Part shown: piece by piece, positions 2,500 to 18,830 of the stretch
How positions within the stretch are numbered: the first letter of the stretch is position 1
Layout of the letters: every line of letters begins with the position of its first letter
From: Prorocentrum cordatum
Lineage: Eukaryota > Sar > Dinophyceae > Prorocentrales > Prorocentraceae
NCBI GenBank assembly: GCA_963575745.1
Contig: CAUYUJ010015271.1
Span: forward strand, 563,908 to 627,907
Length of the DNA stretch: 64,000 nucleotides
Direction: 5' to 3'
Notes under the pieces: generated by a model
The model's database searches: none
Seen by the model: the letters and a program-made list of their open reading frames with translations, nothing else
Told to the model about the DNA's origin: nothing
Position numbers and translations under genes: made by a program

Positions 2500-2896
2500 T
2501 GGAACGTCCCCGAGCACTTCCTTAATCTTATTCGGGCTCTTTATGATGGCAACCGTTGTCGACTCATTTGTAAAGGGGGGGACTTCGACGGCTTTGGGAT
2601 CCACGCTGGTATTCGGCAGGGGTGCCCACTGTCCCCCCTCTTGTTTGCCGTCGCGGTAGACGTTCTCTTGCGACGCCTCTTCAGAGCGCCCCCCGACGCC
2701 ACCTTCAGCGCTTGCGGATGACATTGGAGCTGCCTTGGAGGACTTCCTGAAGGACGCGGGCGTGATGGATCGCATTTTCCCAGAGTTTGCTTCGATTTCG
2801 GGGCTGCACCTACTTGGGCTTCTTAGACGGGCCAGGAAAACGGCGAGGTTCGTGGTCGAAGGCGCCCGGTAAATTCCTTGACCGGCGCACCCTCTG
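2500..2896 (+). pseudogene. LINE reverse transcriptase catalytic core, frameshifted
   Basis: From 2500 the frame reads NLIRALYDGN and then GIRQGCPLSPLLFAVAVD, the invariant reverse transcriptase block. After another frame change near 2707, LADDIGAALEDF supplies the two catalytic Asp residues of the Tyr/Phe-X-Asp-Asp box. From 2787 a third frame gives YLGFLDGPGKRRGSW and then KFLDRRTL, a block typical of dinoflagellate LINEs downstream of the catalytic box. Coding sequence stops abruptly at 2896, where the inserted element begins. Confidence 0.8.
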
Positions 2897-2960
2897 CCTG
2901 GAGGTCCTTCGCTTCTTAAAGATAAGAAGCGGAGCTTCGCTTCTTAAAATAAGAAGTGAG
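2897..2960. repeat. Left terminal inverted repeat of the 9.5-kb element
   Basis: Matches the reverse complement of 12330-12412. It contains two short imperfect palindromes built on CTTCTTA...TAAGAAG (about 2909-2930 and 2938-2958), which also occur in the right repeat, so each terminus can fold on itself. Confidence 0.85.
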
Positions 2961-2984
2961 ATCTATATGCATGCGAGTAGCGTA

Positions 2985-3063
2985 TGATCAGCCAAAACGG
3001 CTTGAGCCAAAATGGTACCGCAGCGGATGCCGCAGTGGATGTCTTGAGCCAAAATGGCTACGC
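2985..3063 (-). other. Cluster of relict dinoflagellate spliced leaders in the left end
   Basis: On the minus strand, 3063-3043 reads GCGTAGCCATTTTGGCTCAA plus G, a near-perfect spliced-leader match. A second copy with GGTACCATTTTGGCTCAAG lies at 3020-2999, followed directly by a shorter CCGTTTTGGCT copy. A relict lacking its first bases placed directly after a GGCTCAAG is the pattern described for mRNAs that were reinserted, re-spliced and reinserted again in dinoflagellates. The cluster points outward, toward the left tip of the element. Confidence 0.8.
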
Positions 3064-3069
3064 GAGAGG

Positions 3070-3628
3070 ACAAGAAGGAGGGAGGGAGGGAGGAGGAGGA
3101 GGAGGGAGGTCCTCCCTCCTCCTCCTCCCCTGCACCTCCCTCCTCCTCCTCCTCCTCCTCCTCCTCCTCCTCCTCCTCCTCCTCCTCCTCCTCCTCCTCC
3201 TTCTCTTCCTTCTCTTCTCCTCCTCAGTCTCGTTCGTCTCCTCGCCCTCCTCTCCCCACCCGCGGGTTCTGGCTCGCGCTCCTGCGTCGGGGAGGTGGTC
3301 AGCACGTAGCCGCGGGGCGCGGGTGGGCCGAGGGCGTCCCTCGTCGCCGCCGCCGTCACCACCGCCGCCGTCTTTGTCGTGGAGCCACGACAAAGTCGCG
3401 GAGGGAGGAGGAGGGTGGGAGAGGAGGAAGGCGAACGAAAAACAAATATCTTCGCTCGGACGCAATGCTTGGCAATGCTTGGTGTCGGCGGCGGGCCCCG
3501 TGCCGCCGTGAACGCGGAACCCGTGCGGAGGAGCTAGAGGGGGCGAAGGGAGATCATTAATGATAGGAAGTAGGTAGATCGAGGGGGGGAGGCGGACACT
3601 GGGATCACTATACAAACCAGTGTCTCGA
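3070..3628. repeat. GGA/CCT microsatellites and non-coding DNA
   Basis: 3078-3118 is GGA rich and 3119-3230 is a CCT/CTC array. The rest, to 3628, contains short CCG and GGA runs but no supported gene. The tract lies between the left end and the 3' end of gene T and is mirrored by a CCT array beside the right end. Confidence 0.8.
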
Positions 3629-5987
3629 TCAATCACCGAGCGCTCGCTTCCCAGGCTTGCCGATCACTTTTGACCAAAACGCGAAGAAATGGTACGACCA
3701 AGTTGATCTGTGCAATGTTGCTGCAATATCAGCTGCAGTGCCATTGGCGCTCTCGTCCGTGAAGGTTGCCTGTTTGCTCGGCCTCCCCATGAATTTGCTC
3801 CTGGGGGAGAGGATCGCAAAGAATCCAGCGGCGTCCCATGGTGTCCCGAGTTCGTTTCGGACCCTAGGGCTGCGGTGGGTGTTAACAAATCTTGCCCCAC
3901 TCGATCGTGTTCCCCCCCCCCCTGTGTCCTCCAGGCCATGTGTAGGCCCAGATGTTGCTTCGGTAGAGGGTCGTATTTACACACAGCCATGTACCTGTTG
4001 AACAACTTTAGGCAACCTAGCAGATCCTCAGGATCGAAAAAAAAACAAAGGACGCCAGAGGAGGAGGGGAGGAGGAGGAGCGGAGAGGAGGGAGGAGGAG
4101 GACGATGAGGAGGAGGAGGGAGATGAGGAGGAGAAAGGAGAGGAGGAGGAGGAGGAGGAGGAGAAGGAGGAGGAGGAGGAGGAGGAGGAGGAGGAGGAGA
4201 AGAAGAAGCGGAGGAGGGGAATGCCCCGTTCCTGCACTTCGAGTGTTCGCATTGGTCTTGTATTGTTCCTGAGTATAACCATGAGTTTTAGTAAGGCGTC
4301 CCCTGCTTTTTTCAAGCCTGTTTTATCGACTGGCAGCTGGTACTTGTCAAGCAAGTGACGGCAAAATCGAACAAGTTGTCTGCATTCGGCAGCTTTTGAT
4401 CGCACCATATATCTGTACTCCTCGCCCATGTTGTGAGACGTCCAATCTGATATCTTCGAAAACCGATACTCGGGGTCAATGGTGGATTGAGCGCTGTACC
4501 AGTTCATGAGTTCGGTTCGTATGATCAAGCAAGAGTTTTCCACCAGTTCTTCCTTGTTTGTTCTGCCACCTTGCCCGTCAGAAATTTTGAAAGCGTCGCA
4601 CAACGCCAAAGTCCATAGCACCGCTGCGCAGTATCTCTGGTATATTCCCAAGTTCAACGTATGTAAAGGATCTATAGCAAGTACTTCGATACCTACACCT
4701 GTAAACAAGGAGAACAACGGGTTCCTGTGATGCGTCCACAGACCAGGGTGCCATCTCCAAAAAAGAACTCTACATGGAAATGAATCTATCAGACTGAAAT
4801 CGCCGACGTCATGCAACTCATCGCTTGGTTCAAGGCGATCGCCTACTCGCAATCCCAAGGCCTCCACTGGACGTATTAAGGCCCTGCCACGACCGCCAAA
4901 TTGAGCTTGCCGTTTTCGTTTGTCGTACCTGAGCGACGCCAGCACTGCAGAGTGCACGGCTTTAGTATCGAGTGTGACCCAAATCTCACCGAGCTTGCAA
5001 TTATCCAAATATTTTTCTGTTGTCTTCAATTCCCATGGCCAATTATCTACAGTCACGCCCTGCTGCTCGTGCCAATGTTCTTTAGATGCGAAGCAAAACA
5101 TGCATGGGGCATCAGCGCTTGACCACGAAGGGAGCCCCAAGCTAACTGCGAACTCGCTCCAATCACCCTTTAATAACACAACCGCACCTCTGACAATTGA
5201 GTTGCCAGCTTCGGACTCTCTGGAAAAGTCTGAGTCCTTCCAATCTTGGCCATCGTGTCGGCATGTGGGCATCAGCCCTTTGGCGAGGGCCTGCAACGAC
5301 CAGTCTAATGTCGAGAACAAACAATGTAAAGAACACCACTTCCTGCAGCCACAAGCGCACATGAACGATTTCCGCACGGCCATGCATAGATGTTTTTTTT
5401 TCTGTGAGCAAGTTGTATACCCATATTCCCAGAAAGCCGTCGTGTTTATTGAACGGCACGCCGTCCAGGTAGAGCGCCAAGGGTAGCACTGTGTTTGGTG
5501 GGCTAGAGCGCACGACTGGATGTTTGAGGTAATTGTCAGCCCATTCTTTATTTGTGATGCTTGCGTGAAGTTCCTGAAGTATCTCTGGTCGCTCGAGCAC
5601 CTCTTCGTTTAAAGCCTCGTGGGGCGGTATGCATGGCGTCTCGTGTTTGGTCCTGGCAGCTTCGTATTTCGAATGCCCAGGAACGTCCATCAAATAAAAC
5701 TTCTGTTTGCAACCTGGTAGTTTGAGGTACGAATCGAACTTCCGCTGAAAATGTCCCGATTGGCTCTCTGGCGACAAAGCGAGTTTACCGCAAGGCCCAC
5801 ATGCGCCAGCTTTGCTGGCCCAATAAGCAAGCACACAGCATGTCTTGGATGATATTTTTCCATGCAGTCGTAGATCCACCAACATTTCCGCAAACAAATC
5901 ACCAGCAGCGGATTGTGACAAGTTTTCTGTTTGCTCATCTGAATCGGAATCGCTCTCCCATTTTAAGCTGTAGTCGTTTTTTCCCAT
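3629..5987 (-). CDS. Gene T: transposase-like protein (tnp2/Plavaka-like DDE candidate)
   Basis: The start at 5987 is the first in-frame ATG after a spliced-leader relict. Exons run 5987-4238, 4026-3929 and 3800-3629 (about 672 residues). The first intron is GT-AG (4027-4237, filled with a GGA array); the second is GA-AG (3801-3928) with AGGA at both splice sites. One extra A in a nine-A run (plus strand 5393-5401) breaks the frame between LLTEKK and HLCMAVRKSF; it may be a real mutation or a sequencing error. Transposase-like blocks in order are LALYLDGVPF (candidate first Asp), a Cys-X-Cys block CACGC, KGDWSEFAVSLG with PCMFCFA, DPLHTLNLGIYQ, and C-terminal TFTDESANGTAADIA. The spacing GD...E...LG...PC-x-x-C and D-P-x-H-x-x-x-L-G is like tnp2-type transposases. 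The family is abundant in dinoflagellates; the role as this element's transposase is inferred from location and motifs. Confidence 0.6.
4040..4210. repeat. GGA microsatellite inside the first intron of gene T
   Basis: A nearly pure GGA/GAGGA array fills the 211-bp intron. The Ser tract seen when the exon is read through is translation of this array and not protein. Confidence 0.8.
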
Positions 5988-6040
5988 GCATGAGTTTGAT
6001 AATGTTCCCACGCGTGATATGTGTGTGCGCTCATGTATTG

Positions 6041-6059
6041 AGCCCAAATGGCTACTAGT
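6041..6059 (-). other. Spliced-leader relict upstream of gene T
   Basis: On the minus strand the bases read GTAGCCATTTGGGCTCAAT, 17 of 19 identical to the spliced leader. The gene T start codon lies 54 bp downstream. Confidence 0.75.
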
Positions 6060-6286
6060 GCGACGGTATACAACGCAACGCCATGTTCAACGATCACACC
6101 TGGTACGATGTTATGTTGTTCGTTTTGTTTTTGTTTTTGAGATGTTTATTTCTGGGCTATATCCGTTGTGTGCCACGCTTTCAGGCGAAATTGCTGGAGC
6201 AACTCGTGCGCAACCACGGTGGAGCTCTCGCGTGGGCGGTGGGCCCGAAATTCAAACTCATGCACGCGCTCAGAGAACCTCACCAC
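6060..6286. other. Spacer between genes C and T
   Basis: Open frames exist on both strands but show no recognisable motif. On the minus strand, read-through of gene C past its stop gives a short stretch that could be a further exon after a GTGAGT donor at 6290; I could not find a matching acceptor. Confidence 0.4.
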
Positions 6287-7469
6287 TCACGCAATCTCCA
6301 CAAACTCCAGGCCAAACCATTGCGAGCGGGGGGTCTGGACAGAGCACGCGGACCACACGCCGAACAGCGTAGTCTTCGCATCGACCACGTAGCGAATCCC
6401 ACCCTCGATAGGCCACGACTCATCGCCCATGATCAGATACGCTCTCTCCTGGCTCACCTGCTTGCATTTCTGATACAAGATACCGCAAGTAATCGAAGTG
6501 GAGCTGGAGTTGAAATTGAGGCAACAATTGTCGCACCTGTGGCAACCGAGCTCGCGGCATGTCTCACACTTGTACCTGCAGCTCTCGTACACGGAGGCAC
6601 CGATAAAGTGGCACACCTGAGGGGCGATACAAAAAAAACAGAAAAGTGGAGGAGGAGAGGGTACCCTCTCCTCCTCCACTTTTCTGTTTTTTTTTGGAGG
6701 GGGCGAGGATGCGTGGTGGGTGGGTGGTGGGTGGTGGGTGGGTGGTGGGTGGTGGGTGGTGGGTGGGTGGTGGGTGGTGGGTGGCGGGTGGTGGGTGGGT
6801 GGTGGGTGGGTGGTGGGTGGGTGGTGGAAGTGGGTGGTGGAAGTGGGTGGTGGGTGGGTGGTGGGTTGTGGGTGGTCGGTGGGTGGGGGGTGGGTGGGTG
6901 GTGGGTGGGTCTTACTCTTAGATTCTATCCCGAGTAACCTGCGAAGGAGGCGGGTGAAAGGGCTGGTAGACGCGACTGCTGTAGTCCAAGCTGGAGTGGA
7001 CCGATGTGTTGCTGTCGAAGCCCACGACGTCGTTGGGGAAGTCCTTGATGTGGGTGTTCGCACCAGCCACTGGTGTCAAGGGGAGCTCCGAGAGATCCAC
7101 GATGAAGTCCTCGAAGCCCTTGCTGAAAATGTCCTTGCACCAGTGCTTGCCATAATCTGTCAGGGCTGCCATCTCCATGTTTGGCAGACGGCCAATCGGG
7201 TAGATGAGGCCCTGGTGGGTCGGCCTGCAGGAACTCGGGCATACACTGGCCGACTTGCAGTGCACAAATGTTTCCTTCACGGATTCCACCAAGGACTTGG
7301 AAGCACCAGCGACTGCATACCTCACGTTGATGCCATCTCTGATAGCGATCCTGCCTTTTTGGGTTGACAATTGCTGGCTGTAGTACCTCTTGCAACACCT
7401 CTTGTGAACAAAACGCTGGCTCTCAGGGTGTCTGCCTAGGCATATGAAGCACGTGCGAAGTTTGGTCAT
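6287..7469 (-). CDS. Gene C: Cys-rich protein of unknown function
   Basis: ATG at 7467-7469 follows a degenerate spliced-leader relict. Exon 1 is 7469-6939, exon 2 is 6616-6287 (about 286 residues). The intron is GT-AG with CAG|GT at both ends, keeps the frame, and holds a GGGTGG minisatellite and a 64-bp perfect palindrome. Exon 1 begins with CFICLG and CCKRYY; exon 2 has a dense block of Cys pairs (SCRYKCETCRELGCHRC), so zinc binding is plausible. No family is recognised. The stop at 6287-6289 overlaps a good GTGAGT donor, so a third exon is possible. It sits between genes A and T on the same strand inside the inverted-repeat element, which suggests an accessory or cargo gene of that element. 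Confidence 0.55.
6631..6694. repeat. 64-bp perfect palindrome in the intron of gene C
   Basis: Arms 6631-6662 and 6663-6694 are exact reverse complements with no loop (centre GGGTACCC). On the minus strand the hairpin base ends 12 bp before the 3' splice-site AG at 6618-6617. Confidence 0.95.
6712..6912. repeat. GGGTGG minisatellite in the intron of gene C
   Basis: Tandem GGTGGGTGGT-type units of 7 to 11 bp. Long Gly/Val/Trp or Pro/His frames here are translations of the repeat. Confidence 0.9.
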
Positions 7470-7503
7470 GGACGCTGGTGCGAAACCTTGGTTTCAGAAG
7501 AAC

Positions 7504-7528
7504 CTCGAGCCAAAAAAACTGGGGACGG
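7504..7528 (-). other. Degenerate spliced-leader relict upstream of gene C
   Basis: On the minus strand CCGTCCCCAG, a seven-T run and GGCTCGAG follow one another. This is the leader with a longer T run and a few substitutions, 35 bp upstream of the gene C ATG. It is the weakest of the four. Confidence 0.5.
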
Positions 7529-8055
7529 ACCAAAATCGGCGAAAACACCGGTTCGAACCGGTTCGAACACAACCGGCCCCAGGGGTCCCCAGTTTCATGG
7601 ATTTTCGTGTTTTTTTCATGGATTTTTCATGGTTTCAGGTTTTCATGAAATCTGCCCTTTTCTGGTGTTTTTGTATGCAAAATAGAGATTCATGATTTTT
7701 TCATGGTTTTTTTTCATGGTTTTTTCATGGTTTCCTGGGCCCTGGGGTTTCCTGATTTCCTGGGTTTTTCTTGCCCCGACGTTGGTTTGGCCTCGGGGGG
7801 AGGGGGGTTCGAGGGCGCGGGGGCCGTTTGGGGAGTTGGAGACGAGGTGGGGAGGGCTGAGGGTGCTCCAGAGGCCAGAGGAGGAGGAGGGGGAGGGGGT
7901 GCAAGGATGGGGATCCCCGAGGGGGAGATCGAGAGGCGTTGAGATGGGCAGTTGAGTTACCACCGCACTTGTTGCTCGACTAAATTGTCAGATCGACATG
8001 CATCGTTGATGCGAAGTTGGCGCCCATGATTGACCACGATGCGCTCTGAAATGGC
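7529..8055. repeat. TTTTTTCATGG repeats and non-coding spacer
   Basis: 7540-7570 repeats TTCGAACCGG as overlapping palindromes. 7590-7745 is an array of TTTTTCATGG units of 10 to 12 bp. 7746-8055 is G-rich, with no gene I can support. Confidence 0.75.
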
Positions 8056-8505
8056 ATATGCCGCCCACATCCTCCCCCTCCTCCTCCCAATCGCCCTCCT
8101 CCTCCCTCATCCTGGTTGTTTATCCCCGTGCTCCTCCCCCTCCTCCTCCCTCCCTTCCTCCTCATCCTCCTCCCTCCTCCCTCCTCCTCCTCCTCCTCCT
8201 CCTCCTCCTCCTCTCCTCCTCCCTCCTCCTCCTCCTCCTCTCCTCCTCCTCCTCCTCTCCTCCTCCTCCTCCTCCTTCCTCCTCCTCCTCCTCCCTTCTC
8301 TTCCTCCTCCTCCTCCTCCTCCTTCTCATTCTCGTCATATTATTCCTTCCTCCTCGAATTCCCGTGTCATTGCACTTCGGGAAGCCGTGGGGCAGCAAGA
8401 AGAAACAAACAGCACGCACTATGCACGATGAACCTCGCACTCGGCGCTCAACACTCGGTGATGAACCTCGCACTATGCACGAGAGCGGCACTCGAGATCT
8501 GGTGC
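8056..8505. repeat. CTC/CCT microsatellite and short repeats downstream of gene A
   Basis: 8075-8325 is a long imperfect CTC array. 8405-8490 contains two copies of a GATGAACCTCGCACT motif with intervening CACTATGCACGA. No gene is seen. Confidence 0.8.
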
Positions 8506-9720
8506 TTAACACTCGGTCTTGACAGGCTTCAGCTGGGCGTTGGGCTTCGTCTGAGCATCCTTAATCCGATGAAGCTGATCCACGGCCTCACGAAGATTAT
8601 CAACCTCCGTCTTCATCTCCACGAAATTCTTGCAGTCGACGATCCAGAGGCTCTCGTCCGTCTTGTACTTCTCAAGCTTGGATGCTGCAGCCACACCCTT
8701 CGTGAGGATGAACTCCTGGCTGTCAGCCTTCTCGTTCAGAGCGGCAAAGGCCGTCTCCAGCTCCCTGAGCCAAACCGACTCTTTGGCGAACTCCCACTCT
8801 GGAGACTTGGCCTGCACCTTGCGCATGGCGTTCATTGCACGGGACAGGACCTCGTTGTACTCGCCCAAGACCGCAGTAGCTTGAGCGTTGAGGGACTTCG
8901 GCGTATCGGCCTTCACCTTCTTGCTGGCTCCCCCCTTTAATGTTGGAGCGGGGCGCTTCTTTGAGCCCGAGTCTGGCGTCTCTGTCTGCGGCTCCGTCGT
9001 CCCCTTTTTGGCAGTGACCTTCATCTCCACGTATTTGCGCCATTTCTTAGCGAACGTCTCCTTGTGGATCTTCCTGACGTACAACATCTCCACGCGCTCG
9101 GTCATGTCGTTGTATCTGATCCATTTGCCCTTCATGAGCATGCATTTCTCCGCGTACTTGAAGGCGGCCTTGATGTTCTCCTGCAGATGGAACCCGCCCT
9201 CCTTCTCCACGACACAGGGGAAGGGCAAGTACTCCCCGATCTCGATGTCCTCGACGCTCCAGTCGTGAACTTGGCTGTACTTCTCGACCAATGGTTTGAA
9301 CTGCTTCTCGGCCCAATCCTTGCGGTACGCAATCTTCTCTGGGTTGGGCTTCTTCTTGAACTCTGCTTTCTCCTCCTTACTCAAACTACTCATCATTTTC
9401 TGTGCGACGTTTCCTCTCGGGTCAATCTCGGATTGGGCAAGAGCGAGCTCCAGATCCTTCCCGAACTTGCCTTCGCGGGTGGCTGGCCAGTTGACGCCCT
9501 CCTGATCCTCGACGTTGGCCATCATGGCGTCGCTAATGGTTTTGGAGAACGCCTTCGACTCCGTCGCGGTCCCTACGATTGCCTGAAGGACACCATCCGT
9601 GTCCAGCTTGCCGTCTTCACTCACTTCAGCGTCTTTGATCTTCTGCATGAGAAGCTTGAGATTCTCAAGGGCCTGTGGGCAGATGTCGACATTGTCAGGC
9701 TCGTTGCACAGGACGCCCAT
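8506..9720 (-). CDS. Gene A: Lys-rich hypothetical protein, single exon
   Basis: The start at 9720 is the first ATG after the spliced-leader relict; the frame is open upstream, but that part would read through the leader. The product is 404 residues, stop at 8506-8508, and rich in Lys and Glu. It begins MGVLCNEPDN and has helix-forming stretches, a basic SKKRPAP patch in the middle that could serve as a nuclear localisation or DNA-binding tail, and a C-terminal half with heptad-like charged helices. I recognise no domain. Basic KRPA motifs recur in gene B, which hints that the two work together. It is intact, with no stop or frame change, in contrast to the LINE around the element. Confidence 0.7.
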   Translation of the reverse strand: MGVLCNEPDNVDICPQALENLKLLMQKIKDAEVSEDGKLDTDGVLQAIVGTATESKAFSKTISDAMMANVEDQEGVNWPATREGKFGKDLELALAQSEIDPRGNVAQKMMSSLSKEEKAEFKKKPNPEKIAYRKDWAEKQFKPLVEKYSQVHDWSVEDIEIGEYLPFPCVVEKEGGFHLQENIKAAFKYAEKCMLMKGKWIRYNDMTERVEMLYVRKIHKETFAKKWRKYVEMKVTAKKGTTEPQTETPDSGSKKRPAPTLKGGASKKVKADTPKSLNAQATAVLGEYNEVLSRAMNAMRKVQAKSPEWEFAKESVWLRELETAFAALNEKADSQEFILTKGVAAASKLEKYKTDESLWIVDCKNFVEMKTEVDNLREAVDQLHRIKDAQTKPNAQLKPVKTEC

Positions 9721-9776
9721 CGCGAGGTCGAGAGCGCTTTGCAGGAACAAAGGCAGTCGTGAAATTGCCACAAAAT

Positions 9777-9799
9777 TCGAGCCCAAACTGGCTACGGAA
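9777..9799 (-). other. Spliced-leader relict upstream of gene A
   Basis: On the minus strand TCCGTAGCCAGTTTGGGCTC is followed by GAA. This is the leader including its first bases, with one substitution and one inserted G in the core. It ends 57 bp before the gene A start. Confidence 0.75.
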
Positions 9800-10197
9800 T
9801 GACATGTTTGAGGGGGAGAGCGGTGATCAGGAGGAGATATTGGAGGATGATTTGGTAGTCGGTAGTGACCATCGGGGAGATGCGAATAGTTAAGATGAGT
9901 AGGAAGACCGAGTCGGAGTAGGAGTAAGAAAGGCGGAGGAGCACGAACAGGAGCAAGAGCACGGGCAACGTGGGAGTGCGAAAGTCTGTGAGACGCCCTA
10001 GCCCCGTTCCCAAGACAAGGCCCCAGGTCAGGACGGATCGAAGCGATTGCAGCGTTGCTGAAGATTTTTCGGAACGGAGAATGCGGAGGAGGATGAGGGG
10101 GAGGGAGGGTCGGAGTAGGAGGGTGAGGAGGGAGTGGGATCTCGCCCTCGGTGTTCGGTCAAGGGGCTGGCGGTCTCGAGCTCGCACTGAACGGATC
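9800..10197. other. Spacer between genes B and A
   Basis: Purine-rich DNA with repeated GGAGTAGGAG-like words. Open frames on the minus strand are Leu-rich readings of it with no support as a gene. Confidence 0.6.
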
Positions 10198-11903
10198 CTA
10201 CATGCAGCTTAGGTGCTCTTCCTGTTTGGAAGCCCAGTCGCGGGCCTCCTCCATCATCGATAGCGGAGGCGCCTCTACTACAGCCCCATCGGTCTCCTCG
10301 GGGTCGTCGTCGTCGACGAAAGCGCTGGGCCTCTTCTTGAGATCACGGTTGTCGGCAGCAGCAGCAGCGGGCCTCTTCCTAAGCGGGGCCTTCTCCTCGA
10401 CGTCGACTTTCTTCGAGTCTGGCACCTGGGCAGACGACGGGGAGCAAGAGTAGGATTTATTGTTTTTTACGTAGTGTTTTACGTCGTGTTTTTACGTAGT
10501 GATTTACGTATTGTTGTTTTTATAACGTATTGTGTTTATGTTGTGTTGTTACGTGTTGTTTTACGTGTTGTGTTTCTCACGTTCACTTGTTGTTTGTTTC
10601 GTAGTGTTTTTATTTGTTGCTTTGTCTCAAGGTTTAACTTTATTTTCTCACTGTTGCGAATTACCATTCCTCCTCCTGCTCCCCCCCTCGCCCTCGTCCC
10701 ACTCCTCATCCTCGTCCTTCCTCCTAGGAGCCACGTCCCTAATATTTGATTTGCTATACCGCAATCACCTTGGCGAACAGCTCGTCGCGCTTGGGATACA
10801 GGTCGTCCTTCTCGACCTTCTTCGCCACGAACTCCTCGCCGATCGTGATCATCAGCTTCACGGCGTCAAGCCTGTCGTGAAACCAGCCCGCAGGGATCGA
10901 GCAGACCTGGCGGCCGTCCAAGTACATCGAAACCTCAGGGGGCGGCATGTCGTCTGGCCCGATCCTTTGCGGTGCACCGCAAAGGATCGGGCCAGACGAC
11001 GATCGCACCAGTATCGAAGCCACCCCGCGGGGAGTGAAGGGTGCCATTCGACCTGAGCCGATCCAGCAGATGAGCGGCCGTGAGAACAACTAAGACTGGA
11101 ACTAACAGTCTCCTGTCCGCCCTGTACTTGATCTCCACGGAGGAGCCGTCGACATCTGCTGTCCATGGCAGCGTGGGCATGCCGCTGTCCGTGCTGCCTG
11201 CAGGTGCCGCCGCTGGCCTCTTCATGGGTGCGGCAGCTTCATCTGTGGCTGCAGGCTTTCGAAGATTGCCGCCCGCTGTACCGTTGTATTCGTCGCAAGT
11301 GCAGTCCACAATGGAGTACTCGAACCCGTCATCCCACACAGCAATTATAGGGTCATCTCCATCACCATCAGTTTTATATTTTGTTGCATAATCCTTGTTC
11401 TTTGACGGGCGCTTGGGGTCTGAGCGGTAAGCTTTGCGCACCTCTTCCATCCAATCAACTTTCCAATCGTAGTCCTCATCTTCCTCATCGTCCTGCTGCT
11501 CTTCACCCTGTAGATCGGACCATAGAGGCCGAACCCAATTCGGGATTGAGGTAGATGTAATTGCTTGCATGATGTGGCGGAACTGGACGAACATCCGTTT
11601 CGATTGTGTATCAGACCAGTCCTCGGCATGCTCCACTTGTTTGAACCAGCTTTTTATCGGATCTGTCTCAATAAGTTTGTCGAAACCTGCTTTGAGTTCA
11701 TCCCTTCGGAACACCAGCCGTCCATTACCAAATGTTTTACCCATCTCTGCGTACATTTTGAAATGTGGTGTGATCTCTTTCGGTTGCCGCGGGCATCCAA
11801 TTTTTTCTCCGTAGGTAATGAATTGTATGCGATCAACATATTTACGAAGCATCTTGGCAAACTCATCTGGATCAAGATCGGCTCTTCTTCGCGAGCCTGC
11901 CAT
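10198..11903 (-). CDS. Gene B: basic KRPAA-motif protein of unknown function, three exons
   Basis: The start is ATG at 11901-11903 (MAGSRRRADLD), after a spliced-leader relict. Exon 1 runs from 11903 to about 11090 (donor not resolved), exon 2 is 10934-10769 and exon 3 is 10425-10198. The 343-bp intron between exons 2 and 3 is GT-AG, phase 0, AAG|GTGATT to CCCAG|GTGCC, so DELFAK joins VPDSKKVDVEEK. The intron before exon 2 ends CTGAG|GTTTCG and holds a 52-bp perfect palindrome. The protein has an N-terminal alpha-helical region, an acidic stretch (EEQQDDEEDED) and Ala/Pro-rich linkers with MKRPAAAP, RKRPAAAA and KKRPSAF, and ends HLSCM. No domain is recognised. The KRPAA words resemble linkers common in dinoflagellate proteins and may aid nuclear import. 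Confidence 0.6.
10457..10640. repeat. TTTTACGTAGTG repeats in the second intron of gene B
   Basis: About a dozen imperfect copies of TTTACGTAGTGTT or TTACGTGTTGTT, T-rich on the plus strand and inside the predicted intron. Confidence 0.8.
10950..11001. repeat. 52-bp perfect palindrome in the first intron of gene B
   Basis: Arms 10950-10975 and 10976-11001 are exact reverse complements with no spacer (centre GCGGTGCACCGC). On the minus strand the hairpin base lies 13 bp upstream of the 3' splice-site AG at 10936-10935, almost the same spacing as in gene C. Confidence 0.95.
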
Positions 11904-11943
11904 TCTCGAGAGTCTGCCCCATGGAATGCACGAAATCACACTT

Positions 11944-11969
11944 TGAGCCACAACCTGGCAACGGTGCAC
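11944..11969 (-). other. Spliced-leader relict upstream of gene B
   Basis: On the minus strand CCGTTGCCAGGTTGTGGCTC is followed by AAAG. It aligns with the leader with three substitutions and two or three short insertions, and ends about 40 bp before the gene B ATG. Confidence 0.6.
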
Positions 11970-12193
11970 CAACCTCGATACGAATGCCTTTTCGCATGAC
12001 TCCTTTTCCTCCTCTCACTTCCTCTCCTCTTGGGATTGCGTTTCTTTGGGACCCCAGGGGCGCTCCCGTGTGGAAAAAACGCAATGGGCTGTCTTCTGGC
12101 TGATCGTCTAAAACATCTTCCCCCCATCCTCTTCCTCCCTCCTCCTCCTCCTCCCCCTCCTCCTCCCCCTCCTCCTCCTTTTTGTATTTTTCC
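11970..12193. repeat. Spacer with CCT microsatellite near the right end
   Basis: 12120-12180 is an imperfect CCT array that mirrors the array at the left end. No gene. Confidence 0.75.
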
Positions 12194-12214
12194 ACGTTGC
12201 CATTTTGGCTCAAG
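12194..12214 (+). other. Relict spliced leader in the right end, pointing outward
   Basis: The plus strand reads ACGTTGCCATTTTGGCTCAA plus G, two mismatches from the spliced-leader consensus over 21 bases. It is followed by CATCCGCTGCGG, the inverted counterpart of a motif beside the left-end leaders, so the leader belongs to the extended inverted repeat. Confidence 0.8.
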
Positions 12215-12329
12215 TCATCCGCTGCGGATATGCGCTACGTTTCCACTGGCCTTGGGTCCAATATCGGGACCGACCATGCGTCACTTATGCCATATATAAT
12301 GGCGCGTCGTTTGCATGTACTTACATGCA

Positions 12330-12412
12330 TATAATGTAACGTATATATCGCACTTCTTATTTTAAGAAACATAAGTACGCTTCTTATCTTTAAGAAGCGA
12401 AGGACCTCCAGG
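12330..12412. repeat. Right terminal inverted repeat of the 9.5-kb element
   Basis: Inverted copy of the left end. The outer 35 bp are identical; inner parts differ by a few substitutions and a short insertion. It carries the same CTTCTTA/TAAGAAG hairpins. Looser similarity to the left end resumes at the spliced-leader-like sequences and the adjoining CCGCAGCGGATG motif. Confidence 0.85.
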
Positions 12413-13543
12413 TGGGGCCCCGCGCCGCCGGGCTAGAAGCATTCCGCGCTCACCTGCAACATGTTTGGCATGTCCGTGCTCGGATTCCTGGCTCAGCTGG
12501 AGCAGCCGCCGCCAGAGGTCTTGAAGGCGGAGGCTCAATCCGTCCGAAAATCCGCAGCGGGCCCCACGAACTGGATTATCCCGGAGGACTGCTGGCACCT
12601 GCGGGAGTCTTGCGGGCAGGCGCGGTCCTTCGCATCCTTGCGCTACTTGGCACATGCGGCCCAAATCCTGGCGGCTTGTTGGGGGCAGCTGGGATCCGGC
12701 AGCCTGGGGCGGAGCAAGAGGGCGGCGCATCTTGAAACTTTATCGGGCCAAACAGACTTCCCAGTGAGACGGGCTCGATGGGCGGACTGGCATGGGCGTT
12801 CCCACGCGCGGGCGCTCGCAGCGGCAATGGAAAACTTGAGGCCCCTCGGCATTCGGAGGACAGATGTCGAAGACGCCCTCGCTCGGAGTCCGCGGCCATG
12901 GGCGCCCCAGGTGGCCAAGCGAGTGCAGAAGGGCTTCCAGAGGGAGGTGTACCGCCGGATTGCGGCCGCACGAGCGCCGAACCCAGAAGTGCGCATGCGA
13001 TGCAAGTTGACGCGGTGGCTGCTGCCTGGGTATCCAGCGCGGACGTCCCGACAGTTATGGCGAAACCTCCAGCGCCTCCAGACGTTGGTGGCGCCTCGTG
13101 CGAGCGCGGCCTGCCTCAGCACACTCTGGAACAGGTGGACCACGGCGCGCAGATTTCAAGTTCGCGGGGCGACGCGCTTCATATCCTGGTTGGGCTGCGG
13201 GCCCGGTCGGGAGGACAGCGTGGAGCATTACCTCCGGTGCCCATCAGTCCAGGCCGTGGCTGCTCGTGAACTCCGCCTTCGAGCATGCGACTGGGAGCAT
13301 TTATTACTTGCCGGGAGCGACGTCGATGACGAATCCCTCGCGCGTCTCGCCTTGTTGGCGCGCGCGGCCCACAGCGCGTTCAACTTGTTTCATCGCCGGG
13401 ACCACCCTCCAACAGCAGTGATAGCACAGCAGGCCCTCCTCCAGAATTGTCTGAGTGGGGCGCAGGGCCACGCGGCCAGCGCTCGAGTGCTTGACGGTCG
13501 ATGGGCTCTTCGGCCATCGCAGCGACGCCGATTACTGCAGTGA
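12413..13543 (+). pseudogene. LINE C-terminal domain with Cys/His motif
   Basis: The frame resumes the LINE at Trp-Gly-Pro after the inserted element and runs to 13543, with one TAG at 12434. It contains MFGMSVLGFLAQLEQPP, then NWIIPEDCWHLRES, the post-reverse-transcriptase region of this LINE family. Further on lie LWNRWTTARRFQ and the Cys/His block GCGPGREDSVEHYLRCP, whose spacing C...D-S-x-E-H-Y-x-x-C-P matches the terminal zinc-knuckle-like domain of dinoflagellate LINEs. The stop follows RRRLLQ. This places the 3' end of the LINE coding region 1.1 kb from the insertion site. Confidence 0.8.
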
Positions 13544-14389
13544 AGTTCATGCCTCTCCTTCCTCGCCTCTGCCTCCTTTCGGTTAGTTCCTCGAGTGCGG
13601 AGCCTTGCCCCTGGGGGTGGGGTAGGCTCCTTTTTTCCCGAATCGTTGCATGTCTGGGCGCGCCTAGATTCCTGCCACGCGCGGTGGCGGTCCTGCGAAC
13701 GAAGGCTAGTTCGCTTCATTGTTGCTCTCTTCTTCTGCCTCCTCCCCCTCCCTCCTCCGCCGGCCGGCCCGAGTCCGGAGCGATTGGGTTTTTTTCGCCC
13801 CCCCCCCCCCCGCGGTGCGCGCATTATATAAATGGCTGGCTGGCCATCGCGTCAGCGCTCTCAACGCGATTCACAGGTTTCCCCTCTCGTCGTTCTTCCT
13901 CCTCTCCCTTGTGGCGCTGATACATTCTAGGGCCCATTCGCATCGCCCGATGCGTCTTCCCCGCATTTCGGGGCCGCAATTAGTGACACGGCTGGCCGCT
14001 GTCTTAGGGGGGCAGGATTTGTCCGCCCCAGCCGCGCGGCGTGCAGCTTCGACGTCCGCTCCCATCTTGCCCCTTTTTCTCCTCCTCCGCGCCGGCCGGC
14101 CGAGAAAGGGGGGAGCTCGCCACAAACTTGTTCTACCGCGACAGGGTGGCATCAGAAAAAATAGAGCTATAGAGCTGTAGGGCCACAGGGCTATAGGGCC
14201 ATTGGGCTATAAGGCTGCACGGCGCACCCGGGCACCCGGGCACCCCCGGACGCGCCCGGGCACCCGGGCACGCGGGCGCCCCCGGGCACCCGGGCACCCG
14301 GGCGCGCCGCGAAAATCGGCGGCAAACTCAATTTGGCCATATGAATCCGCTAGGACCCCTACAGAGGCAAGCTCTGATTGGGGAATTAG
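13544..14389. other. LINE 3' flank and GC-rich low-complexity DNA
   Basis: Pyrimidine-rich and C-run sequence with no supported gene. 14160-14210 repeats GGGCTATAG-like words and 14215-14312 is a CACCCGGG minisatellite. A poly(A) tail for the LINE is not visible. Confidence 0.6.
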
Positions 14390-16165
14390 GCGTGCGGGAC
14401 GCATGCGGGCGGCCCCATTGGGGGCTTCGCTGGAGCTCCCTATGGGGCCGCGAAGCGTTGTGCAGGGTGGGCGAAAATGCCAAATGGAATATGGAGGACG
14501 CGTGCGGGCGGCCCCACTGGGGGCTTCGGTGGGGCTCCTTATGGGGCCGCGAAGCGCTGTGCTGGGCCTGTGAAAATGCCAAACGGGGTGTGGGCGGCGC
14601 ATGCGGGCGGCCCCTGTGGGGGACGCACGCGGGCGGCCCCAGTGGGGGCTTCGGTGGGGCTCTCTATGGGGCCGCGAAGCGCTGCACTGGGCGGGTGAAA
14701 ATGCCAGCGGGCGGTCCTGCTGGGGGCCTCGGTCGGGCTCCCGATTGGGCCACGAAGCGCTGTACTGGGTGGGTGAAAATGCCAAATTGGATGTGGGGGG
14801 CGCATGCGGGCGGTCCCACTGGGGGCTTCGGTGGAGCTCCCTATGGGGCCGCGAAGCACTGTGCTGGGTGTGTGTCAATGCCAAGTTGGGCGTGGAGGGC
14901 GCATGCGGGCGCTTCCATTGGGGGCTTCGGTTGGCCTCCCTATGGGGCCACGAAGCGAGTTACTGGGTGGGTGAAAATGACAAATCGGATGTGGGGGGCG
15001 CATGCGGGCGGCCCCAGTGGGGGCTTCGGTGGAGCTCCCTATGGGGCCACGAAGCGCTCTGCTGGGTGGGTGACAATGCCAATTTGGGTGTAGGGAACGC
15101 ACGCGGGCGGTACCACTGGGGGCTTCGGTGGGGTTCCCGGTTGGTCCACGAAGCGTCGTACTCGGTGAATGAAAATGCCAAATCCGGTGTGGGGGACGCA
15201 TGTGGGCGGTACCACGGGGGGCTTCGGTGGAGCTCCCGATGGGGTCTCGAAGCACTGTACTGGGCGTGTGAAAATGCCAAACTGGGCGTGGGGGACGCAC
15301 GCGGGCGGTCCCACTGGGGGCTTCGGTGGAGCTCCCTAGGGGGCCACGAAAAGATGTACTGGGTGGGTGAAAATGCCAAAGCGGATGTGGGGGACGCATG
15401 CGGGCGGTCCCACTGGGGGCTTCGGTGGAGCTCCCTATGGGGCCACGAAGCGCTCTGCTGGGTGGGTGACGATGGCAAATTTGATGTGGGGGACGCATGC
15501 GGGCGGTCCCACTGGGGGCTTCGGTGGAGCTCCCTATGGGGCCGCGAAGCACTGTGCTGGGTGGGTGTCAATGCCAAGTTGGGTGCGGGGGACGCATGCG
15601 GATGCTCCCATTGGGGGCTTCGGTCGGCCTCCCTATGGGGCCACGAAGCGCGTTACTGGGTGGGTGAAAATGCCAAATCGGATGTGGGGGACGCATGTGG
15701 GCGGTACCACTGGGGGCTTCGGTGGAGTTCCTTATGGGGCCACGAAGCGCTCTGCTGGGCGGGTGACGATGCCAAATTGGATGTGGGGGACGCATGCGGG
15801 CGGTCCCACTGGGGGTTTCGGTGGGGCTCCCGATCGGGCCGCGAAGCGTGTACTGGGGGGATATAATGCCAAATTTGATGTGGGGGACGCATGTGGGCGG
15901 TGCCACTGGTTTCGGTGGAGCTCCCTATGGGGTCACGAAGCGATGCATTGGGTGGGTGAAAATACTAAATTATGCGTGGGGGGGGCGCATGCGGGCGGTC
16001 CCACTGGGGGCTTCGGTGGAGCTCCCTATGCGGCCACGAAGCGCTGTATTGGGAGGGTGAAAATGCCAAATCGGGTGTGGGTGACGCATGCGGGCGGTCC
16101 CACTGGGGGCTTCGGTGGGGCTCCCTATGTGGCCACGAAACGCTGTGCTGGGTGGGTGAAACGCA
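14390..16165. repeat. Satellite A, 99-bp tandem array
   Basis: About 18 units sharing GCATGCGGGCGG, CTTCGGTGGAGCTCCCTATG and GGGCCACGAAGCGCTGTACT. Unit starts at 15394 and 15493 show the 99-bp period. Since 99 is a multiple of three, units stay open in several frames and yield long spurious frames on both strands. Confidence 0.9.
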
Positions 16166-16879
16166 TGGAAGAAGGAGGAGGGAAGGGGAGGAGGAGGAGA
16201 GGAGGAGAAAAGGAAAGGAGTGCGGGGACCGTTTCTTCAAAACGAGGACCCAACACCACAGGATGGTTGGGAAAAACGAGTGCTCGCGGCGCTGATGCGG
16301 CAGTCGCAGTTTGATTCGAAAGGGACCCACCTTCCATGAGTGAAGTTGTTTCAAAGTTTCGACGCGAGGGCTACGCTCATGCGACAAGCACATGTTGAAC
16401 AAAAAGGCCCGCCCTCCATCCGTGAAGACCGAACAAAGTTGTCAAGACGAATGTGCGCGGCGCTGGGGCGAGTATCGCATTTTGAAAAAGACCCGCCCTC
16501 CATGTGCGCAACTCCTGCGAACTTGACAAACGAATGCGCGCGACGGTAAAGCGAGAAACATTTGTTGCAAAGGAGCCGCCCTCCATCTTCAAAGCTCTTT
16601 CACATGTTTGGAACGAAAACGCGCGGAGCTAGAGCGACACTTACATTTGACAAGGACCCGCCTCCCATCCGTCCGAATATTCTCAAACGTTTGAAACGGA
16701 TGCGCGCGACGCTCCAGCGAGAGCCGAATTCTGAATAGAACCAGCCCTCCATCCGCGAAGCAGTCGCAAGGTTTTGAAACGAACGTGCGCGACGCTACGT
16801 CGTTAACCACATCTTGAAGACAATTATCCTGGCGAAGGACCCAGCAATATGCAGTTGTAAGTACCGCAATTACGAATAT
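16166..16879. repeat. Satellite B, ~84-bp degenerate tandem array, with junction block
   Basis: After a GGA run and the block CTTCAAAACGAGGACCCAAC (about 16234-16253), units recur near 16325, 16410, 16494, 16578, 16659 and 16745. Each carries CCCGCCCTCCATCCGTGAAG and a downstream TGCGCGACGC word, with much divergence. Confidence 0.8.
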
Positions 16880-18420
16880 CTTCTTCGGTGGCGTTCCCTA
16901 TGGGGCCACGAAGCGCTGTACTGGGTGGGTGTAACGCAGGGAGCAAGGGCTATGCTGGGTGGTGGCTGACGCATGCGGGCGGTGCCACTGGGACCTTCGC
17001 TGGAGCTCCATTTGGGGCCACGAAGCGATGTACTGGGTGGGCTAAGCGCAGGGAACAAGGGCTGTGGCAGGCGGTGGCCGGCGCATGCGGGCGGTGCCAG
17101 TGGGACCTTCGGTGGAGCTCCCTATGGGGCTACGAAGCGTTGTACTGGGTGGGTGAAACGCAGGGAGCAAGGGCTGTGCTGGGTGGTGGCGGACGCATGC
17201 GGGCGATGCCACTGGGACCTTCGCTGGAGCCCCTTATTTGGCCACGAAGCGCTGTACTGGGTGGGTGAAACGCAGGGAGCAAGGGCTGTGCTGGGTGGTG
17301 GCTGACGCATGCGGGCGGTGCCACTGGGACCTTCGGTGGAGCTCCATTTGGGGCCACGAAACGATGTACTGGGTGGGCGAAGCGCAGGGAGCAAGGGCTG
17401 TGCTAGGCGGTGGCCGGCGCATGCGGGCGGTGCCAGTGGGACCTTCGGTGGAGCTCCCTATGGGGCTACGAAGCGTTGTACTGGGTGGGTGAAACGCAGG
17501 GAGGAGGGGGCGGAGGGCCACGAAACGCTGTACTGAGTGGGGGGGGGCGCATGCGGACGGTGGACCTGGAACTTTCGGTGGAGCTTCCTATGGGGCCACG
17601 AAACGTTGTACTGGGTGGGCGAAGCGCAGGGAGGAGGAGGAGGAGGAGGAGGAGGAGGAGGGCCACGAACAGCTGTACTGGGTGGGGGGACGCATGCGGA
17701 CGGTAGACCTGCAACCTTCGGTGGAGCTCCCTATGGGGCGACGAAGCGCTGTACTGGGTGGGTGAAACGCAAGGAACAGGGGGAGGAGGGCCACGAAACG
17801 CTGTACTGGGTGGGGGGGGCGCATGCGGACGGTAGACCTGGAACCTTCGGTGGAGCTCCCTATGGGGCCACGAAACGTGTATTGGGTGGTGAAACGCAAG
17901 GAGGAGGGGGAGGAAGGCCACGAATCGCCGTACTGGGTGGGGGGGGCGCATGCGGACGGTAGACTTGGAACCTTCGGTGGAGCTCCCTATGGGGCCACGA
18001 AGCGTTGTACTGGGTGGGTGAAACGCAGGGAGGAGGGGGACGAAATGCTTTACTGGGTGGGGGGGACGCATGCGGACTGTAGACCTGGAACCTTCGGTGG
18101 AGCTCCCTATGGGGCCACGAAACTTTGTATTGGGTGGGTGAAACGCAAGCAGGAGGGGGAGGAGGGCCACGAAACGCTGTACTGGGTGGGGGGGACGCAT
18201 GCGGACGGTAGACCTGCAACCTTCGGTGGAGCTCCCTATGCGGCCACAAAGCGCTGTACTGGGTGGGTGAAACGCAGGGAGGAGGGGGAGGAGGGCCACG
18301 AAACGCTGTATTGGGTGTGGGGGACGCATGCGGACGGTAGACCTGGAACCTTCGGTGGAGCTCCCTATGGGGCCACGAAGCGCTGTACTGGGTGGGGGGG
18401 ACGCATGCGGACGGTAGGGA
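16880..18420. repeat. Satellite A variant, 112-bp then 120-129-bp units
   Basis: Same core as satellite A, but GCATGC words at 16971, 17083, 17195 and 17307 are 112 bp apart. Later units (for example 18068, 18197, 18326) are 120 to 129 bp, lengthened by GGA runs. This marks a second amplification of the same core with longer spacers. Confidence 0.9.
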
Positions 18421-18830
18421 TGAGGGGGAGGAGGAGAGCAGGACAGGAACGCGGGGACCGTCTCTTCAAAACGAGGACCCAACAACACATGTTGGTTGGG
18501 AGAAAAAGGACCCGCCCTCTATCCGTGACGCTCTGGCACATTTTGAAGACGAGCGTGCGCGACGCGATAACCACATCCTGGAAAGGATCCGACCTCCATC
18601 CGTGAAGCTGTTACAAGTTTTGAGCCCGAGTCTGCGCGTCGCACAGGCGATAACCACACTATGAAAAAGGACCTGCCCTCCGTCCGTGAAGCTCTGTGAA
18701 ACTTTGAAGATCGACGAATGTGCGCGGCGCTATGACCATGGCCTCATGTTGAAAGAGGTTCGCCCTCCATACGTGATACTGTTGCACGTGTTTGAGACGA
18801 GGTTGCGCGGCTCTGAGGCGAGAGCCGCAT
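18421..18830. repeat. Satellite B, second array, ~85-bp units
   Basis: It starts with the same junction block (CTTCAAAACGAGGACCCAAC near 18464) and then units near 18503, 18589, 18674 and 18759. The order A-block-B therefore occurs twice. Confidence 0.8.

Follow-up and report, generated by a model that had tools for sequence, protein, structure and literature searches.

The stretch of DNA analysed here, called the window, comprises 64,000 nucleotides (nt) of the dinoflagellate Prorocentrum cordatum (contig CAUYUJ010015271.1, below C14422, positions 563908-627907) and belongs to a genome assembly of 4,128,499,153 bases in 21,875 contigs. Positions 2897-12412 of the window are a complete 9.5-kb cut-and-paste transposon inserted in a long interspersed nuclear element (LINE), with four genes, all on the minus strand, whose exon limits and starts were judged by eye (Table 1). 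The outermost 35 nt are the same at both ends, the right end being the reverse complement of CCTGGAGGTCC... and finishing at 12412, and both ends begin CCTGGAGGTCCTTCGCTTCTTAAAGATAAGAAGCG. The left end, used as a query against the genome, returned the right end (89% over 71 nt), and a looser likeness between the two extends inward to about 220 nt. Within the terminal repeat, the imperfect palindrome TTCTTAAAGATAAGAAG is followed by TTCTTAAAATAAGAAG. When the flanks are joined with one TG, they give a single frame, ...RRTLW/GPAPPG (the slash marking the junction), then TAG. The joined sequence (200 nt) is matched by five other LINE loci of the same genome, all spanning the junction; in the two that were aligned (C13784 and C16240), there is no gap across it and one TG is present. 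A preliminary description, made from the window alone, had delimited the element to the base by its inverted ends, the flanking TG and the restored LINE frame, had placed in it a transposase-like gene and three more genes on one strand, and had proposed a search for empty sites; the boundaries and the gene content are borne out, and empty counterparts exist.

Table 1. Coordinates of the element, its genes and motifs, and related loci. Plain numbers are positions in the window; for loci elsewhere in the genome, the contig is given.
Feature	Location	Strand	Remarks
Target duplication TG, left copy	2895..2896		
Left terminal inverted repeat	2897..2970	+	CCTGGAGGTCC..., two imperfect palindromes (TTCTTAAAGATAAGAAG, TTCTTAAAATAAGAAG)
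Spliced-leader-like, extended left terminal repeat	3043..3063	-	20/21
Transposase gene T	3632..6034	-	about three exons by eye
Transposase last E (DES)	3740-3766	-	
Transposase H(3)H	3937-3963	-	
Transposase box DPLHTLNLG	4646-4675	-	IDPLHTLNLG with preceding residue
Transposase C(2)C	5093-5107	-	
Transposase second D (KGDW)	5150-5170	-	
Transposase CxCGC..WC cluster	5333-5359	-	
Transposase first D (YLDG)	5451-5471	-	
Spliced-leader relic just upstream of likely transposase start	6037..6057	-	17/21
Gene 2	6287..7469	-	two exons, Cys-rich; homologues adjoin transposase at three related loci
Gene 3	8506..9720	-	single exon, 404 amino acids; homologues in families A and B
Spliced-leader-like, upstream of gene 3	9776..9797	-	one inserted base; compared by eye
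Gene 4	10201..11903	-	three exons (by eye); homologues in families A and B
Spliced-leader-like, extended right terminal repeat	12194..12214	+	19/21
Right terminal inverted repeat	12339..12412	-	outermost 35 nt as in left repeat
Target duplication TG, right copy	12413..12414		
LINE locus matching joined junction	C13784		91%, nt 2-200 of 200
LINE locus matching joined junction	C16240		79%, nt 1-190
LINE locus matching joined junction	C12314		79%, nt 1-190
LINE locus matching joined junction	C5324		78%, nt 1-190
LINE locus matching joined junction	C17704		73%, nt 1-192
Family W full copy	C14422		9516 bp (window)
Family W full copy	C13359		9490 bp
Family W full copy	C4669		9457 bp
Family W full copy	C14210		9480 bp
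Family W full copy	C14050		10,124 bp, about 0.7 kb extra in internal repeat
Family B copy	C13430		9104 bp, target duplication TT
Family B copy	C14675		9265 bp, target duplication GC
Family A copy	C7258		8804 bp, target duplication TG
Family A copy	C19444		target duplication GA

The family of the window's element, here named W, has five full copies on five contigs: the window copy and four more that are 97-99% identical, with pairwise differences of 0.98-2.74%. Their flanks, in the order of Table 1, are TG, TC, TA, TG and AA. A sixth copy (C14223) has one end only, the remainder being cut by the contig start. Since the five full copies share their ends and each has its own 2-bp duplication, these ends are not due to chance. 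The genome was also searched with a 21-nt W end, which yielded 10 exact sites and one 1-mismatch site, all of them ends of known copies, so that no non-autonomous copy was found among these sites. With all mismatch levels (up to three) included, there were 98 + 113 sites, against 248 + 253 in a backward control, and the remaining sites are therefore mostly chance matches. The 382 changes specific to single W copies show a bias: on the plus strand, 123 of them are T>C and 63 A>G, which corresponds to an A>G excess on the coding strand.

Two further families, A and B, whose ends were obtained by comparing copies within one family, are 8.8-9.3 kb long and have ends starting CCCTGTG..., unlike those of W. 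The ends are CCCTGTGGTCCACC for family B (six copies by its end) and CCCTGTGACTC or CCCTGTGACCC for family A (five loci with its end), both ends having been fetched for two copies of each. The palindrome layout of the W repeat recurs in the left end of family B, with CCTAAATTTAGG. The target site duplication is exactly 2 bp in all nine insertions with both ends fetched (five W, two B and two A), while a duplication of 3-8 bp fits none of them; when the boundary is shifted outward by 1, 2, 3 or 4 bases, the 2-mers agree in 0, 2, 2 and 3 of the nine. That the element is a genuine DNA transposon making 2-bp duplications is thus borne out, as the preliminary description had it. That description would have been contradicted by longer duplications in related insertions or by the lack of any other locus with such ends and genes; the former were seen in none of the nine, and as to the latter, there are four more full W copies, and three of the genes recur, in unchanged order, in families A and B. 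A tenth pair of ends, 5.7 kb apart on another contig (C13270:66569-72259), is W-like and degenerate; a gene 3 homologue lies between these ends, and the flanks, CC and CT, give no matching duplication. This locus is a decayed relative.

All three families have gene 4, then gene 3, then the transposase on a single strand, the transposase standing last with its 3' side toward the nearer element end. For gene 3, the best E-values of the two search directions are 2e-21 (W-B), 2e-6 (W-A) and 6e-15 (A-B), and for gene 4 they are 7e-9, 3e-4 and 1e-16, respectively, the family A gene 4 being two frames joined. Gene 2 was not found in families A or B by tblastn (E 0.075 or worse). At three loci (C1928, C13933 and C20765), a gene 2 homologue stands between gene 3 and the transposase and shares their strand. 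Judging by their sequences, these loci are probably one family, because C20765 and C13933 share 93% identity over 3.6 kb; the transposase stretches there are 45-50% identical to P0004, the homologue used below as reference. The remaining gene 2 matches, compared by hand, are partial and away from the listed transposase loci. Window gene 3 was matched on the contig of 16 of the 62 transposase loci found with P0004 (W 5, B 6 and five others, hence not independent), each time on the same strand and upstream of the transposase within 8 kb, as compared by hand. Family A is outside these 16, its gene 3 having been found by direct comparison alone. In the whole genome, gene 3 gave 103 scored matches out of 1754 first-look candidates, which makes the gene 3 family a large one, mostly not tied to any transposase; it could possibly serve as a marker for many further families of this lineage. 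Many open frames of 400-750 amino acids occur among its relatives, and a large protein set (4482 candidates scored) contained one homologue. Perfect palindromes of 52 bp (10949-11000) and 64 bp (6631-6694) lie inside likely introns of genes 4 and 2, respectively, and may be introner-like insertions or assembly artefacts. Gene 4 of family B is a single open frame without the palindrome-bearing intron.

Two A-runs, one between 6004 and 5982 and the other near 5393, interrupt the frame of the window transposase, which is therefore not a single open frame; the copy on C13359 has an open frame of 667 amino acids. A search that covered 7997 candidates gave at least 117 homologues of this protein, and 83 of the 117 were taken into an alignment numbered after P0004 (726 amino acids, 46% identical to the window transposase). 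D190, the CxCGC..WC cluster, D290, C310xxC313 and D450-x-L-H453-x3-L-G458 are invariant or nearly so (82 of 83 rows for the first D, the second D and both cysteines of C(2)C; all 83 for the D and the H of the box). The last E is kept in 33 of the 37 ungapped rows, and the two histidines of H(3)H in 53/61 and 41/53, respectively. A genome search with P0004 had 6117 first-look candidates, of which 63 were scored as matches, falling in 62 loci; those listed mostly have long open frames without stops.

The question is then which of the known superfamilies, if any, these elements belong to. A lenient hhalign comparison (mact 0.01) of a 96-row family profile with 34 PF02992 proteins, among which the named ones are from plants, aligned 582 columns and paired nine chosen positions (D, D, C, C, D, H, H, H and E) in register with tnp2; a conserved plant G (783) falls on a tryptophan position of the family profile. 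The order and register of D, D, C(2)C, DxxH, H(3)H and E are in this lenient alignment the same as in plant CACTA/EnSpm elements (Transposase_21, DUF4218), while the ends are here CC..GG (CCTGG), the duplication is 2 bp and the profile score against tnp2 is marginal. The plant elements have CACTA or CACTG ends and a 3-bp duplication, and carry genes for the accessory proteins TNPA and TNPD. According to excerpts of PMC1636069, the TRC elements of the CACTA superfamily have CCC ends, a CxxC motif, direct repeats of 2 bp (in 7 of the 14 copies of SmTRC1, and also in Tribolium and Aedes) and a box [LVI]-D-x-[LM]-H-x3-L-G, given for the animal and three of the four fungal TRC elements. The likeness to TRC comprises the 2-bp repeats, the repeats internal to the terminal inverted repeats, the CxxC after the second D, the box (IDPLHTLNLG in the window; present in 85 of the 117 homologues collected) and the C-rich first bases, which are CCC in families A and B, as in TRC, and CCT in W. 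The differences are the lack of a Transposase_21 hidden Markov model match, the extra CxCGC..WC between the two D and the three co-oriented accessory genes. Excerpts of PMC12730594 describe for the CMCT clade a C(2)C and an H(3-4)H between the second D and the last E and duplications of 2-5 bp, and for the fungal EnSpm CAC..GTG ends with a 3-bp duplication. The fungal PlavakaA, a CMCT member compared by its description there beyond the Pfam scans, is alike in its 2-bp duplication and in the C(2)C, H(3-4)H layout, and unlike in its TGT..ACA ends. The preliminary description had noted that a 2-bp duplication does not fit the 3 or 5 bp of superfamilies with tnp2-like transposases; that 2 bp would set the element apart from tnp2/CACTA-like transposons is not supported, in view of the 2 bp of TRC (PMC1636069, excerpts) and the 2-5 bp of CMCT, with 2 bp in PlavakaA (PMC12730594, excerpts). 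Its suggestion of an undescribed lineage agrees with the literature searched: titles and abstract openings on dinoflagellate DNA transposons, CACTA and EnSpm (PMC9860276 among them) describe no such elements, and none is named in the excerpts of dinoflagellate genome papers including PMC10666404. A placement outside the known superfamilies is not established. The transposase has the CMCT motif layout, and the profile check against DDE families that the preliminary description had proposed gave no Pfam match above chance and marginal tnp2 scores.

We consider it most probable (at roughly 80%) that these elements form a new lineage within the CMCT clade, one that has a conserved module of accessory genes and is distantly related to the plant and animal CACTA. 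On sequence grounds they would be distant CMCT members, short of proof, because the motif layout fits but the profile scores are weak. Several results weigh against this placement. In Pfam, nothing above chance level was matched by the four genes, by 55 homologues or by three proteins of families A and B; for the 55 homologues, the best E was 0.13 and no transposase appeared, with Transposase_21 absent at E up to 10 within the hmmscan filters. With default settings, hhalign against tnp2 gave Prob 0.6% and P 0.11 over 63 columns; the core gave P 0.021, reached by none of 120 shuffles, with a reversed profile scoring 21.5 vs 23.8, and P 0.44 without context pseudocounts, and its alignment was not recovered under the hhalign global options. 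For the full-length profile, P was 0.05, the score being reached by 5 of 100 block shuffles. The termini are CC..GG in all three families, not CA..TG. Between W copies, the ratio of nonsynonymous to synonymous differences (pN/pS) was, on few changes, 2.4 and 1.8 for the transposase, with no sign of selection on it (gene 2 exons 1.4 and 0.5; gene 3 0.5; gene 4 exons 2.3, 1.6 and 0.2). Finally, the search with window gene 3 found nothing on the contig at 46 of the 62 transposase loci. A profile search of solved structures returned just two flagellin sequences (E 0.24 and 0.33), and PF02992 found nothing in the genome; this model was also silent in all 14 controls, which makes the result uninformative.

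The missing Pfam family, the marginal profile scores and the CC..GG ends would also suit a superfamily of its own, convergent on the CMCT motif layout or sharing it only very distantly, as would the conserved multi-gene module, which is absent from the CACTA descriptions in the excerpts of PMC1636069 and PMC12730594. Against this, the nine motif residues keep their order in the alignment with tnp2, the TRC box and C(2)C are nearly invariant, and the 2-bp duplication and C-rich ends are as in animal TRC (PMC1636069, excerpts), so that we regard a separate superfamily as unlikely. The 55 homologues scanned match no named transposase in Pfam, which also speaks against membership in another named superfamily such as Kyakuja-Dileera-Zisupton (KDZ). 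The KDZ transposases are DDE enzymes with zinc ligands, and accessory genes occur there too. Zisupton duplications are, however, 8 bp long (PMC12730594, excerpts) vs 2 bp in nine of nine insertions here, and such a membership is very improbable. That the element is a non-mobile cluster of genes lying between inverted repeats by chance, or an artefact of assembly, could be suspected from the homopolymer frame breaks and the perfect palindromes, but is practically excluded: five contigs carry copies that share their ends and have duplications of their own, five LINE loci match across the junction, and the 10 exact and one 1-mismatch sites of the 21-nt end are all known copy ends.

As a member of the CMCT clade, the gene T protein would be an RNase-H-fold DDE enzyme with a zinc site formed by C(2)C and H(3)H. 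It would pair two CCTGG... ends, probably via the tandem palindromes of the terminal repeats, excise the element and join it to target strands 2 bp apart, gap repair then giving the 2-bp duplication. Genes 4 and 3 probably encode element-specific helpers, acting in DNA binding or regulation, by analogy with TNPA of En/Spm, which has a comparable role.

The elements also carry copies of the dinoflagellate spliced leader, DCCGTAGCCATTTTGGCTCAAG (PMC12014239, excerpts). These copies themselves suggest a dinoflagellate source. Both matches in the W terminal repeats read outward and are present in all five copies, with one further change in C4669 (left) and in C14050 (right), and the relic before the W transposase is identical in the five. 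In family A, there is a 21/21 match upstream of the likely transposase start and an 18/21 match near one end, reading outward; family B has 16/21 upstream of the transposase frame and 19/21 upstream of gene 4. No leader with three or fewer mismatches occurred in 100 shuffles of the window, and 45 first-order control sequences contained two matches with up to five mismatches. These relics are likely the result of transposon genes passing through trans-spliced mRNA; that they function as a promoter or binding site is a guess. A bolder proposal would make these elements a separate superfamily of multi-component dinoflagellate transposons, in which transposition needs the products of genes 3 and 4 besides the DDE enzyme, and the spliced leader encoded before the transposase (in W also within both terminal repeats) serves expression or binding. 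We hold this to be doubtful, but if it were true, the lineage could be among the main causes of genome growth in dinoflagellates, because a single genome holds 6117 first-look transposase candidates and 1754 such candidates of gene 3.

Unclassified repeats abound in the huge genomes of dinoflagellates, and the lineage described here comes with exact ends, target duplications and empty counterparts. Families other than W offer intact open frames, among them one of 752 amino acids in family A, alongside the conserved gene set, and repeat annotators gain a family that is missing from Pfam. It can now be asked directly whether transposition depends on the accessory proteins, and for what reason these transposons carry spliced-leader copies. 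Beyond the element, long tandem arrays with open frames lie at 14181-18605 of the window, the repeated units being WGLRWSSLWG-like and GGAPYGATKR-like.

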